Shown: one piece after another, positions 1-5,669 of the stretch
How the letters are laid out: every line of letters starts with the position of its first letter
Position numbering within the stretch: the stretch's first letter is position 1
IMG/VR virus record: IMGVR_UViG_3300031774_000155
Span: 1-23,807 of that record
Strand: one strand, 5' to 3'
Length of the DNA stretch: 23,807 nt
Source: a virus
Notes under the pieces: generated by a model
What the model was told of the DNA's origin: nothing
Databases searched by the model: none
The model's input: the letters and a program-made list of their open reading frames with translations, nothing else
Position numbers and translations under genes: made by a program

Positions 1-466
1 TTTCTGGCATTGGATTAGGTTTATGCCATATAATATCCTGTCTTAAATACCATCCATCTGCTCTTAATGCAAACGCAAGCATCCACGGAATACCTATTAA
101 ATCTTTTTCTTTTAACCCTTCTAACTTATTACCTCGTCTTGCACATTTGTCTGGTAAATCTTGCTTACTGTTAGAAACAGTTTGTTTAACTAATGATTGA
201 CCTTTTCCTGGTCTATAGTTATAATAACTATCACCCATATTCAACCATAATGTTCCATCATCTGTTAGATTATTACGCACCTCTCGGAATACTAATACTA
301 ATCTTTGAATATACTCTTCTGGAGATTCTTCTTGTCCTATCTGACAATCCTCCCCTCCATAATCTCTTAAACCATAATAAGGAGGAGATGTGACACACAT
401 CCTCGCCTTTTCATCGAATTCTTTAAGTGTTTCGAGACAATCTCCAAACAAAATTGTATCTTTCAT
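1..466 (-). CDS. DNA methyltransferase (N4/N6, beta-type order), 3'-truncated by window
   Basis: About 155 residues are visible and the C-terminus lies outside the window. The start reads MKDTILFGDC, followed by the catalytic motif TSPPYYGL at residues 26-33, then GTLWLNMGDSY, KDLIGIPW and DIIWHKPN. This is the usual block order of the common phage SAM-dependent DNA methyltransferases, in which the SAM-binding FxGxG motif comes last; here it would be off the edge. SPPY is more typical of N4-cytosine enzymes, but this subfamily also includes N6-adenine enzymes, so the target base is open. The ATG overlaps the stop of the upstream nuclease gene as ATGA, so translation is probably coupled. Possible roles are protection of the phage genome from host restriction or from the neighbouring nuclease. 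The family call is secure; the specificity is unknown. Confidence 0.93.
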   Translation of the reverse strand, partial: MKDTILFGDCLETLKEFDEKARMCVTSPPYYGLRDYGGEDCQIGQEESPEEYIQRLVLVFREVRNNLTDDGTLWLNMGDSYYNYRPGKGQSLVKQTVSNSKQDLPDKCARRGNKLEGLKEKDLIGIPWMLAFALRADGWYLRQDIIWHKPNPMPE

Positions 467-855
467 TTAATTAATACCTCAAATCCTTCATTGATTAATG
501 ATTTAATACTAAATGATGTTTTTAATTTACCATCTTTATTCATTAACTGTGTTATATTAGCAATGATAAATTTATCTTTAATTGTATCATGTATAGCGAT
601 ATAATCAAACTCTTTTCCAGTATAATTACCAGTTCCTTTATTTCTCTTTCTTCTAATATCTAAAACATTAGTATTTTTTACCTTTACATTATGACGTTTA
701 ACTTGTATCTTAGTGCTGGTCTTTGCAACCATAAAATCCCATCCAGTATCCAATTTAGGTTCTATTAACGAATATGATTCATCATCAATAAATTCATAAT
801 ATTGTGAAGCAAAAGCATATTCACTTGCAAGTCCTCTTAATCTATGCGGTTTCAT
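463..855 (-). CDS. small PD-(D/E)XK-fold nuclease
   Basis: This 130-residue protein has the compact layout of small PD-(D/E)XK nucleases: Glu12 in the first helix, Asp40 in TGWDFMV, and Gln51-Val-Lys53 in IQVKR, giving an E...D-x10-QxK active site. The Gln in place of the central Glu, together with the size, recalls the group I intron-associated PD-(D/E)XK endonucleases (I-Ssp6803I type) and Holliday-junction resolvase-like proteins. I see no intron sequence around it. Its start overlaps the helicase stop and its stop overlaps the methyltransferase start, both as ATGA, so the three proteins are probably made together. It could be a homing-type nuclease, a recombination nuclease working with the helicase, or the cutting subunit of a restriction-like system. 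The fold assignment is an inference from spaced motifs only. Confidence 0.7.
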   Translation of the reverse strand: MKPHRLRGLASEYAFASQYYEFIDDESYSLIEPKLDTGWDFMVAKTSTKIQVKRHNVKVKNTNVLDIRRKRNKGTGNYTGKEFDYIAIHDTIKDKFIIANITQLMNKDGKLKTSFSIKSLINEGFEVLIK

Positions 856-2027
856 TTTCTAATTACAGAAATAGCGGGTTCACCCTTGTTAAAAATAGTA
901 TCAACAACTGCTTCAACTTTACGAGATGTAGATATACCCACTCTATCATATACTGGTACAGAAATCAACCCAAAAGTCTTACTTTCACTACCTTTTCTTA
1001 TTACTCTACCAATAGTTTGACTAATAGTAATGTAATCCATATTTCTTAAGAATATTGCTGCTTCTAATCCTTTAACATTGATACCCTCAGATAATATACT
1101 ATGATGTAATACTACAAACTTCTTACCATCTTCTTTACCCCACTCATTGAGAGTATTAAAGAATGATTCACGGTCTACTTTCTTACCATCAACAACTGCC
1201 CCAGTTTTAGCAGTAATATACATCCATGAATATCCACGGTCTTTTAAGTTGATGCAAAAATCAGATTGTGATACTAAATTAACAATTTGTTTGGTAGATC
1301 TTGCACAGACTAATACTTTATCCATATCAATCTCATCAAGAGTAGATGTAACATAGTCACAATCATGCTCATGCTTAAATCTACTGTCATCTTGAACATC
1401 TATCTTCTTAATCTTAACTTTAGGTGGTAAGATTACACCTTGACGTACTAAATGAGGTGCAGGTACATTAACTAATACTTTACCATACACTTCCTCATTA
1501 TTCATTCCTACTCTCTCAGTAGAAATGCTATGCTTAGGAGTAGCAGTAAAGAAATAGCACCTACGATTATTTGTAGTTGCAAAAAATCTAACAGCAGGGA
1601 AAAAGTTTCTCTGAACACTATTATGTGCCTCGTCAAAGTAAATAGTATCTATTACAATAGCAGATTCTTGTACTTTATGTAAAGAATGATATGTTGTAAA
1701 GATTAACTTATTACTAAAACTATTATTATTCCATGCTCTTATCTTGTGAGTATTTGTTGTGCTGTAATAATGTGTCTCTCCACTATGAACATGGAGTACA
1801 TCTACATTATCAATTAGTTCTAAAAAATTTGCACATAATTGTTGTGCTAATAATATACGAGGTGCAACAACTACAATAGTTTTAGATACACTATCTGCAA
1901 ATTGTCTCTTAGCATCCTCAATCATACAAATAGTCTTACCACCACCAGTAGGAACAATTACTTGCCCCTTAGTGTGATGCTTAAGAATATCAACAATTTG
2001 TGTCTGATGTGGACGCAATTTAATCAT
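852..2027 (-). CDS. superfamily II DEAH helicase/translocase (UvsW- or Res-like)
   Basis: The 391 residues carry a full SF2 helicase set: RPHQ near the N-terminus (5-8), Walker A PTGGGKT (26-32), motif Ia VVVAPRILLAQQ (52-63), DEAH (132-135), motif III TATP (161-164), motif V SEGIN (313-317) and motif VI QTIGRVIR (337-344). The two RecA-like lobes are complete, with no long extra domain. Such proteins in T4-like phages resemble UvsW (branch migration and recombination) and the translocase part of type I/III restriction enzymes. It overlaps a PD-(D/E)XK nuclease gene as ATGA, so a two-subunit nuclease-helicase is possible. The leader upstream holds a structured element and a promoter-like repeat, and there is no Shine-Dalgarno before the ATG. 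The helicase call is very secure; its pathway is not. Confidence 0.93.
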   Translation of the reverse strand: MIKLRPHQTQIVDILKHHTKGQVIVPTGGGKTICMIEDAKRQFADSVSKTIVVVAPRILLAQQLCANFLELIDNVDVLHVHSGETHYYSTTNTHKIRAWNNNSFSNKLIFTTYHSLHKVQESAIVIDTIYFDEAHNSVQRNFFPAVRFFATTNNRRCYFFTATPKHSISTERVGMNNEEVYGKVLVNVPAPHLVRQGVILPPKVKIKKIDVQDDSRFKHEHDCDYVTSTLDEIDMDKVLVCARSTKQIVNLVSQSDFCINLKDRGYSWMYITAKTGAVVDGKKVDRESFFNTLNEWGKEDGKKFVVLHHSILSEGINVKGLEAAIFLRNMDYITISQTIGRVIRKGSESKTFGLISVPVYDRVGISTSRKVEAVVDTIFNKGEPAISVIRK

Positions 2028-2188: not shown

Positions 2189-2941
2189 CTATTTCATAAA
2201 GTTTTCTATAGGATTATACTTAAGTATTCTATCTCTTGCTATTTGACAATAACTCTCACTAATATCAATACCAATATATTTCCTCCCTAATTGATGTGCA
2301 ACTAATGTTGTTGTACCTACACCATTAAAAGGATCAACTACAATATCATTTTTATAAGAGAATAATTTAAGACATCTTTTCACTAACTCTTCAGGAAACA
2401 TTGCAGGATGATTATATTCTTTCATCCTTGTCTCTGGTGCTATTGACCAATGACCATTGACATATTTAATAAACTCTTCTTTAGTAATATCAATATTATT
2501 CTTATCACCCACATGCTTAATTGTATTCTTACTGAATACTTCAATAAATTCAAATGGATAATTTAAATAAGGACAAGAGGGAGATTTATAACTACCCCAT
2601 GCTGTTAGTTTCTTCAGGTTATTCTTTAACCAAAGTATTTCTCCCCTCCAAATTAATCCCTCTTCAATTAATGCTGTAGTCAAATAATGATGAGATGGAA
2701 AGTATTCTTTATAGTTTGGTTGAATATTAATAATTAAACGTCCACCATCTTTCAGTATACGTTTACACTCAGAAAATACAGTTACAAGAGTATTAATATA
2801 TTTGTGACCCTCATTCTTATCATCATGCTCATCATATTGCATGTCAAAATTATATGGTGGAGATGTAAGTACAATATCCACACTATTATCATCAATAGTT
2901 TCTAATGCTGTTAGTGCATCATTACAAATAATTTGATTCAT
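2189..2941 (-). CDS. MjaI-like type II DNA methyltransferase (probably m4C, CTAG)
   Basis: This 250-residue beta-class methyltransferase has the catalytic TSPPY at 26-30 near the N-terminus and the SAM-binding DPFNGVGTT at 203-211 near the C-terminus. TSPPY is the form usual in N4-cytosine enzymes. The gene directly upstream encodes an MjaI-family endonuclease; the two overlap by one base (TAATG), so methyltransferase translation depends on, or is coupled to, translation of the nuclease. M.MjaI-type enzymes modify CTAG as m4C, which would protect phage DNA from the partner enzyme. The protein is full length. Target specificity is inferred from the partner, not read from the sequence. A 29-bp repeat with a CTAG follows the stop codon at once, which would allow self-regulation by methylation. 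Confidence 0.9.
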   Translation of the reverse strand: MNQIICNDALTALETIDDNSVDIVLTSPPYNFDMQYDEHDDKNEGHKYINTLVTVFSECKRILKDGGRLIINIQPNYKEYFPSHHYLTTALIEEGLIWRGEILWLKNNLKKLTAWGSYKSPSCPYLNYPFEFIEVFSKNTIKHVGDKNNIDITKEEFIKYVNGHWSIAPETRMKEYNHPAMFPEELVKRCLKLFSYKNDIVVDPFNGVGTTTLVAHQLGRKYIGIDISESYCQIARDRILKYNPIENFMK

Positions 2942-3468
2942 TAAGTAACAACCAATCCCTTCGTTGTGTTCTTATAATATATTATATCATACTCTATAGT
3001 TTCTTTCCCTGCTTCAATAGTTTTCTTATAAGTATGAGGTTTAATTGATACATATTTACCATCAACAACTCCATCAATTCCTTTTGACTCTTCATCAGGA
3101 GTAGCAAGTCTATATTCACCAGTTTCAGATACCATCTCTAATATATCTAATTGAACTTGTAACCCTGAGAATGTTTTATTAACGATTAAATCTTTAGTCC
3201 AATTATATACATCATCACGATTAAGTTCATCTAAATTCTTTTTAATTCTCTGCACATAATCCCATATCTTATCAGCAGCAAGATCAATCTTATCAAGTCC
3301 TTGTGTCTCATCATAAAAAGATTCCCATCCATCTTGAGACGGATGAGGAGTAGATTCACGATAATCTTGTATTAAATCACTCATCTGACCTACATTCTTA
3401 GGTCTTGTTGCTTGAGAAAATGAATTCCCTAAGTTGATAACTGAACCAACATACTTTTCAACGGTCAT
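2941..3468 (-). CDS. MjaI-family type II restriction endonuclease (expected CTAG)
   Basis: This 175-residue protein matches my memory of the MjaI endonuclease family (Pfam RE_MjaI) along its whole length: RPKNVGQMSDLI near the start, a middle NWTKDLIVNKTFSGLQ block, and a C-terminal active site with E126/E127, ESKGID (Asp132) and VSIKP (Lys143), giving D-x8-SxK of the PD-(D/E)XK fold. It ends with IIYYKNTTKGLV, also typical. MjaI cuts CTAG. The gene appears intact and its stop overlaps the cognate methyltransferase start by one base. There is no clear Shine-Dalgarno, so expression may be low. In a phage, a complete restriction-modification pair could exclude competing phages or degrade host DNA. 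The call depends on recalled family features, without an alignment. Confidence 0.82.
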   Translation of the reverse strand: MTVEKYVGSVINLGNSFSQATRPKNVGQMSDLIQDYRESTPHPSQDGWESFYDETQGLDKIDLAADKIWDYVQRIKKNLDELNRDDVYNWTKDLIVNKTFSGLQVQLDILEMVSETGEYRLATPDEESKGIDGVVDGKYVSIKPHTYKKTIEAGKETIEYDIIYYKNTTKGLVVT

Positions 3469-3486: not shown

Positions 3487-4044
3487 TTACTTACTTGTAA
3501 TCTTATTCTTTAATTCCTTCTCTGATTTCTTACCTGTATTCTTTAATATTTCATCACGCAATGCTCTTTCTCCTTTTTTATATAAAGACTTACGTTCTTT
3601 AGTAGTAAGACCAGATGCCTTGCGTGGTTTATAAGTAGGGTCAACAGTATTAGTCTTCTTTGTTAATAATTTGTCTGCCTGTTTCTTTAACTGATCTTTA
3701 CTCTGACCTCCAGACTTCGCTGCTCTTCTTTCTAATGCTGCCTTGCGTTGTGCTTCTCTTGCTGATAATGCAGCAGAACCTCTCTCTTTTGTTGGTTGCT
3801 CCTGCCTCTCAGTTGCTCTTCCTTTAGGTCTTTGCTTACCAATATCCTTACGAGGTTTGTAGTTTGCTGCTGGTGCAGTTTTACCTCCACCCACTGCTTT
3901 CACTCTTTTCTTTTCAGCATCAGTTTTCTTACGTTCACCCCCTATCTTATCACCACCTCTATGTGTTAAACCAGTACCAGACCCAAGACCTTCAACGTCC
4001 TTAATCTCTCTTGCTTCATTAATAAATTGGTAAAAAGATTTCAT
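3487..4044 (-). CDS. basic MKSFYQF-type cyanophage protein, function unknown
   Basis: The 185 residues begin MKSFYQFINEAR, the short aromatic/acidic N-terminal tag seen on many T4-like cyanophage proteins. The rest is very rich in Lys, Arg and Gln and looks disordered or coiled. The signature RKKTDAEKKRVKAVGGGKT and two copies of YKPRK (in ANYKPRKDIGKQ and PTYKPRKASGL) recall a conserved cyanomyovirus hypothetical family. The charge suggests nucleic-acid or capsid-interior binding, but there is no direct evidence. A CATAAATA box, matching the late consensus NATAAATA, lies about 20 bases upstream, which suggests late expression and a virion or packaging role. The MjaI-like endonuclease gene follows after 18 bases. 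Confidence 0.8.
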   Translation of the reverse strand: MKSFYQFINEAREIKDVEGLGSGTGLTHRGGDKIGGERKKTDAEKKRVKAVGGGKTAPAANYKPRKDIGKQRPKGRATERQEQPTKERGSAALSAREAQRKAALERRAAKSGGQSKDQLKKQADKLLTKKTNTVDPTYKPRKASGLTTKERKSLYKKGERALRDEILKNTGKKSEKELKNKITSK

Positions 4045-4062: not shown

Positions 4063-4070
4063 TATTTATG
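4063..4070 (-). promoter_or_regulatory. late promoter box CATAAATA
   Basis: The minus strand reads CATAAATA, fitting the T4-like cyanophage late consensus NATAAATA. It overlaps the end of the upstream small gene and lies about 20 bases before the ATG of the MKSFYQF protein. Confidence 0.5.
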
Positions 4071-5145: not shown

Positions 5146-5173
5146 ACTATAAGTACATTTTAAATGTCCCCCC
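5145..5173 (-). repeat. 29-bp repeat, copy 2
   Basis: On the minus strand this reads G6-ACAT-TTAAAATG-TAC-TTATAGTG, and it includes the last two codons and stop of the Dam-type methyltransferase. TATAGT (5146-5151) has the same spacing to the G run as in copies 1 and 3. ACATT/AATGT gives an alternative hairpin. Structured leader 2 follows at once. Confidence 0.7.
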
Positions 5174-5669
5174 TTTTATATAAGAATCCATATTTACCAA
5201 ATACTTTAGTAAATCTATCTAAATCTTTACCCAAATATACTATTGCTGATTGAAATGGTGCAGCACCTGTTCCAACACCAAATCTCAATCTCTTATTAAT
5301 TGCTATCCACGGATATTTTGCTACTGATCGCCACCACTTAGTAGAAATATCTAATTTAATTAATAATACCATCTCTTCTGCATTTCCTGATTCATATTGT
5401 AATGCAGCATAAGGAACCCAAGTTTTACTATCACTATAAGGATGATTCATAAACACTTTTCCATGCCAATCATGTGCTAATCCATTAGTTTCCTCTGTAA
5501 AATAATTTAATGCTGGAACATTAGGATTATCCACATCATTACAACATGGGTCAAGGTCAACAGTACCAAAAAATTTAAGAACATCTCCCACAAAATTAGT
5601 GGGAGTGTTCCATGTATCTTTACGATTACCTGTAGTTGCTGTTAGTACTTTAAGTGCAGTTGATGTCAT
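5160..5669 (-). CDS. phage Dam-type DNA N6-adenine methyltransferase
   Basis: The 169 residues follow the phage N6-adenine methyltransferase family (Pfam Dam, PF05869): DTWNTPTNF near 18-26, VDLDPCC at 37-43, catalytic-type MNHPYSD at 74-80, a WW pair at 112-113, and QSAIVYLG near 140-147. In most relatives the catalytic motif is NPPYS; here the second residue is His, so it reads NHPY, with Asn, Pro and Tyr kept. It probably modifies adenines of phage DNA to evade host restriction or to mark phage DNA. The ATG follows directly on the stop of the 470-residue protein (TAAATG), so translation is coupled. The last codons form part of repeat copy 2. Confidence 0.86.
   Translation of the reverse strand: MTSTALKVLTATTGNRKDTWNTPTNFVGDVLKFFGTVDLDPCCNDVDNPNVPALNYFTEETNGLAHDWHGKVFMNHPYSDSKTWVPYAALQYESGNAEEMVLLIKLDISTKWWRSVAKYPWIAINKRLRFGVGTGAAPFQSAIVYLGKDLDRFTKVFGKYGFLYKRGDI

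Follow-up and report, generated by a model that had tools for sequence, protein, structure and literature searches.

A Predicted CTAG-Specific Restriction-Modification Pair in a Cyanophage Fragment and Related Phages That Carry the Nuclease Alone and Have Lost CTAG

Closest Described Systems

The archaeal CTAG-specific restriction endonucleases (RE) MjaI and MthZI are PF09568 (RE_MjaI) nucleases and have the same invariant residues as the phage nuclease that is the subject of this article. The MthZI gene is convergent with that of its DNA methyltransferase (MTase) on plasmid pFZ1, whereas in the phages the MTase gene follows the RE gene and overlaps with it. Lytic viruses with encoded restriction enzymes are known among the chloroviruses (CviAII and others), in which the enzymes are thought to degrade host DNA (PMC7019647). 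The chloroviruses differ, however, in having a eukaryotic host and in that their nuclease and MTase genes are reported to be always adjacent; their nucleases are packaged in the virion. Lytic viruses whose genomes are entirely free of CTAG, as is that of cyanophage S-SM2 (see below), have been described in the HF1 group of haloviruses, which lack both CTAG and GATC, but there the CTAG absence is attributed to a CTAG system of the host rather than to a virus-encoded nuclease (PMC7230728).

The closest relatives are found in cyanophages. A tblastn search revealed the RE in ten cyanophage records, where it is annotated as a restriction enzyme, among them S-SM2 (75% identity) and S-H9-2, S-RIM32, and S-CAM3 (about 60%). 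In these four (60–75% identity, same RE family) the annotation reads “restriction enzyme type II R/M system 1.” S-CAM3, S-RIM32, and S-H9-2 have, like the DNA studied here, an RE gene that comes first and an overlapping MTase gene (annotated DNA methylase, 70–71% identity), but at other genomic positions, with psbA or regA as neighbors. S-SM2, by contrast, has the RE without an MTase, an absence on which its annotation is silent. Since ten cyanophage records already carry an annotated RE, the original prediction that an intact phage-borne pair is unusual does not hold, and in a survey of related phage contigs RE and MTase occurred together in most loci. The pair is already known in cyanophages; what is new is a nuclease that stands alone in genomes from which all its sites have gone. 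Searches of the open-access literature returned no report of such an arrangement in a phage, and a survey on how viruses of prokaryotes avoid restriction sites names neither CTAG nor cyanophages in the main text.

The Gene Pair and Its Surroundings

The window, i.e., the whole stretch of DNA analyzed, is a virus record of 23.8 kb whose helicase, ferredoxin, and nearest relatives indicate that it is a fragment of a marine T4-like cyanophage. The span 2189–3468 lies on the minus strand and is read in the order RE, then MTase. The RE gene (2941..3468, minus strand) encodes a predicted CTAG cutter of 175 amino acids and the MTase gene (2189..2941, minus strand) a partner of 250 amino acids of the N6/N4 type. 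Both open reading frames are intact, as had been claimed, and share base 2941: in the sequence TAATG (2939..2943, minus strand) the RE stop codon TAA overlaps with the MTase start codon ATG, which is predicted to couple translation of the MTase to that of the RE. At the equivalent junction in relatives the overlap is 4 or 8 bases rather than the one base of the window. The motifs quoted earlier were likewise found, RPKNVGQMSDLI and ESKGID...VSIKP (with D132 and K143) in the RE and TSPPY and DPFNGVGTT in the MTase. Because both proteins recur with 100% identity on an independent metagenome contig (L002/L126), the pair is no assembly accident.

Directly upstream of the RE gene a basic protein of 185 amino acids (3487..4044, minus strand; pI 10.4) is encoded, with equivalent neighbors in S-SM2 and in contigs L012, L094, and L007. 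Its N-terminus, MKSFYQFINEA (MKTFQEFIAEA in the L094 counterpart), appears similar to the propeptide by which T4 internal head proteins are targeted to the capsid, an analogy suggesting that an injected head protein may be encoded immediately upstream of the RE. Downstream of the MTase gene follows a helicase gene (852..2027, minus strand), which serves as a landmark: S-SM2, L012, and L094 have first the upstream gene, then the RE, and then the helicase, without MTase. Two further genes of the window should be mentioned. The protein of 130 amino acids encoded at 463–855 (minus strand), which overlaps with the helicase gene by a few bases, carries the PHROG 16903 label “methyltransferase,” while by impression its sequence is more like that of a small PD-(D/E)XK nuclease. 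At 5160–5669 (minus strand) a phage Dam-type adenine methyltransferase (PF05869, 8e-21) is encoded, the second DNA methyltransferase of the window.

In many relatives the RE gene appears to be preceded by a promoter of the sigma70 type. Of 29 non-redundant loci, 14 had an exact TATAAT before the RE gene (1.8 expected from shuffles), several times with a full or near-consensus −35 element; among the other genes of four cyanophages the proportion was 4–12%. This suggests that the host RNA polymerase transcribes the RE gene early. No such promoter was found for the RE of the window or for that of the S-SM2 clade. The window has instead a late-promoter-like octamer, CATAAATA (4063..4070, minus strand), 26 bp upstream of the 3487–4044 gene, possibly the late promoter of the operon; none was seen at this place in the relatives. 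Late-promoter-like octamers of the form NATAAATA occur nine times in the window on the gene (minus) strand and not at all on the opposite strand, several of them 25–40 bp upstream of genes.

Nuclease and Methyltransferase

The assignment of the RE to the MjaI family, previously made from the sequence alone, was confirmed by a full-length profile match (PF09568, 4.7e-45; 153.8 bits with a cut-off of 22.7; profile positions 3–164 of 164) and is in line with a PADLOC REase_II match (1.8e-43). None of the catalytic candidates E126/E127, D132, and K143 varies among the aligned relatives, the plasmid-borne MthZI homologue from Methanothermobacter included. The AlphaFold model of the RE (pLDDT 88.3, pTM 0.59) gave for residues 82–175 two restriction enzymes, NhoI and Eco15I, along with Holliday junction resolvases as best PDB matches, all of them weak (Z ≤4.6, no Foldseek E <0.66); a secure fold assignment, to the PD-(D/E)XK nucleases or otherwise, did not result. 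Ratios of dN/dS were 0.07–0.12 in all comparisons, those within clades having only the RE included (0.08–0.12 for the window RE versus relatives); these values indicate that the nuclease is under strong purifying selection, also where the MTase is gone. The MTase matches N6_N4_Mtase (PF01555, 7.8e-47), and its PDB relatives include a DNA cytosine-N4 methyltransferase (1.2e-20), both of which support the view that the partner is of the m4C type.

The order of the two genes had been considered odd, rightly so. In cyanophage-type homologues with an MTase, the MTase gene always comes after the RE gene, with an overlap of 1, 4, or 8 bases. Of 80 cellular RE_MjaI loci and one virus locus inspected, 67 had a recognizable MTase gene within 1.5 kb, which was convergent in 36 cases, preceded the RE gene in 29, and followed it with the same orientation in two. 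With two of 67 cellular loci being RE-first, this order is unusual and yet not unique to phages. An RE-first arrangement is also found in cyanophage ACG-2014j (L087 2508–3786), where an endonuclease annotated as RsaI is directly overlapped by a methyltransferase. This system was considered as a parallel for site avoidance and rejected: the observed/expected ratio (O/E) of GTAC in ACG-2014j is 0.41, which lies within the range of other cyanophages (0.39–0.75) and therefore reflects no specific avoidance.

The genomic position of the genes varies. The pair adjoins psbA in S-H9-2 and S-RIM32 and regA in S-CAM3, and the RE is located at the helicase locus in S-SM2 and in the window, which suggests repeated transfer.

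Relatives With the Nuclease Only

The genome of S-SM2 is complete (190,789 bp) and contains not a single CTAG, where about 291 are expected from a Markov estimate. No MTase was found in the whole genome by searches for PF01555, for open reading frames with MTase motifs, or in the annotation. S-SM2, L012, and L094 have the flanking genes of the window, with RE followed by helicase and the MTase missing. In S-SM2, but not in L012, a gene for a protein of 379 amino acids, SSM2_067 (L019 9636–10775), without any Pfam or PHROG match, is located between the lone RE and the helicase.

A second RE-only clade (G008, G009, G016), in which the RE is followed by other genes, nests beside that of the window; no PF01555 match was found in G008 and G009, and CTAG was counted 0 times with 106 expected in G009 and 0 times with 23 expected in G016. 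A third group consists of distant uncultured phages, the RE of which has 27–32% identity and matches PF09568 at 1e-26 to 1e-32. Their contigs, of up to 160 kb, showed no PF01555 MTase and the following CTAG counts (observed/expected): G028 0/325, G018 0/165, G019 0/127, G021 0/111, G020 0/89, G025 0/77, and G022 3/91. It should be noted that among the RE-only phages the genome of S-SM2 alone is complete and that in metagenome contigs the absence of an MTase may reflect their being fragments. In the RE tree, the cyanophage RE-only clades are found in two places inside RE + MTase clades, consistent with two losses of the MTase, although some of the inner branches are weakly supported; the distant group forms a separate branch.

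CTAG was completely absent from 13 of the 17 RE-only contigs. The remaining sites are unevenly placed. All nine of G008 lie inside one long tail-fiber-like gene, the three of G022 within 610 bp of a contig end, and the two of L012 in a stretch without match to S-SM2; L094 also retains two. In the window, 16 of the 18 CTAG are located at 11.6–23.3 kb in and around the tail genes. This distribution would fit recent import from phages without RE.

CTAG Frequencies

The pooled O/E of CTAG was 0.01 in the RE-only phages and 0.23 in those with RE and MTase, whereas two control sets without the nuclease gave 0.90 and 1.06. The classes differed in Mann-Whitney tests (p about 1e-6 for RE-only versus RE + MTase and 7e-6 for RE-only versus RE-less isolates), with the reservation that these p values ignore relatedness and that several contigs are near-duplicates. 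Among phages with RE and MTase the O/E ranged from 0 to 1.11, and several contigs were not depleted (among them L103 with 14 sites and 12.6 expected and L106 with 22 and 23.2). CTAG avoidance is therefore not inevitable. In ten cyanophages without RE_MjaI match the O/E was 0.73–1.06, with 289–607 CTAG each. Synechococcus WH8102 is listed as host both for S-H9-2 (RE and MTase; O/E 0.14) and for Sf-FS3 (no RE; O/E 1.01), so that in this case host restriction does not explain the loss.

Similar controls are available for the distant group. Of 80 tail-sheath relatives of G028, 77 had a CTAG O/E of 0.66–1.34, and the remaining three were short contigs with zero CTAG and no RE on them (L421, L422, L428), which are predicted to belong to RE_MjaI-carrying phages. 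None of the 32 larger records from the two relative sets had an RE match; 25 of these are kin of G028 with a pooled O/E of 1.06, while CTAG is completely missing from the other seven, all of the G020 group. Of the RE neighborhood these seven fragments contain no more than a piece at the contig edge of G033, and for this reason they neither support nor contradict the association.

CTAG is not the only palindrome missing from cyanophages. CCGG is wholly absent (0 of 67–98 expected) from the genomes of S-H9-2, S-RIM32, and P-SSM2 (L034–L053, L148–L157), and P-SSM2 lacks CGCG and GCGC, too. Host restriction or another phage nuclease are candidate causes.

Proposed Mechanism and Alternatives

The window very probably encodes a working type II restriction-modification pair of a lytic cyanophage, a CTAG cutter directed against non-self DNA, with self DNA protected by methylation or by loss of sites. 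The genome statistics strongly support CTAG as the recognition site, and the CTAG erasure in relatives without MTase indicates that the nuclease is active and directed at other DNA in the infected cell. The nuclease would cut unmethylated CTAG in the host chromosome, in rival phages, or in both, while the coupled MTase would mark the phage's own sites. Protection by the MTase may be partial enough for selection against CTAG to persist, so that carriers would lose CTAG besides methylating it. Once the loss was essentially complete, the MTase would become dispensable and could be deleted, as in the S-SM2 clade and in that of G008, G009, and G016, leaving a lone nuclease from which the genome is protected by site erasure; thereafter CTAG could not return. 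We infer the order of these steps, like the activity, CTAG specificity, and target of the enzyme, from sequence comparisons. The earlier proposal that the nuclease is used after the phage has modified its own genome is thus correct for methylation in some lineages, but RE + MTase phages still avoid CTAG, and in S-SM2 and other phages without MTase it is the near absence of sites that protects.

If instead CTAG were missing because the hosts restrict it, the phage nuclease would be incidental. The haloviruses provide a precedent (PMC7230728), zero-CTAG fragments without RE exist (L421, L422, L428, and the G020 group), and several cyanophages, whether or not they carry this RE, have next to no copies of other palindromes such as CCGG. 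This is nevertheless quite improbable, since the ten RE-less cyanophages are normal for CTAG, one of them sharing its host strain with an RE carrier, depletion goes with the presence or absence of RE and MTase in each of three groups, and the RE-less G020-group fragments miss the RE neighborhood save for the piece in G033. The normal relatives of G028 and the RE-less phages that share family and host strain with carriers lead us to reject host restriction as the sole or main cause. Lone phage methyltransferases are common, and PF01555-type relatives are present in phage records, so one could also think of an inactive RE beside an MTase that alone matters by protecting from host restriction. 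This we find hardly credible for a nuclease that is conserved under purifying selection and kept without MTase in several lineages, in exactly those of which CTAG is erased.

What the cutter is mainly aimed at is a separate question. Degradation or shut-off of host DNA early in infection, as in the chloroviruses (PMC7019647), comes close to being an even call; the sigma70-like promoters before the RE genes of many relatives point to early expression by the host polymerase, but the operon of the window has a late-promoter-like site instead. Exclusion of competing phages in co-infection, rather than degradation of host DNA, is conceivable as the main task, although we lean against it: the RE-less cyanophages with their hundreds of CTAG would be susceptible, and CTAG, being generally under-represented in bacteria (PMC4687349), would be a poorer site for shredding host DNA, but chlorovirus nucleases are not responsible for mutual exclusion (PMC7019647).

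Significance

Whichever DNA is the main target, we consider it likely that the lone restriction enzyme is a phage weapon without MTase, made safe by complete site erasure, which arose by at least two MTase losses in cyanophages and is found in a separate phage group, with foreign tail-fiber DNA as the leak. Both the functionality of a phage-borne restriction enzyme and its recognition site would then be indicated by sequence alone. Self-protection by erasing the site rather than methylating it lets the antidote gene be discarded. It is predicted that a palindrome wholly absent in one lineage, but of ordinary frequency in related ones, may betray a phage-encoded nuclease. Recombination with foreign DNA, moreover, reintroduces sites, which implies that gene flow from phage to phage is hindered.
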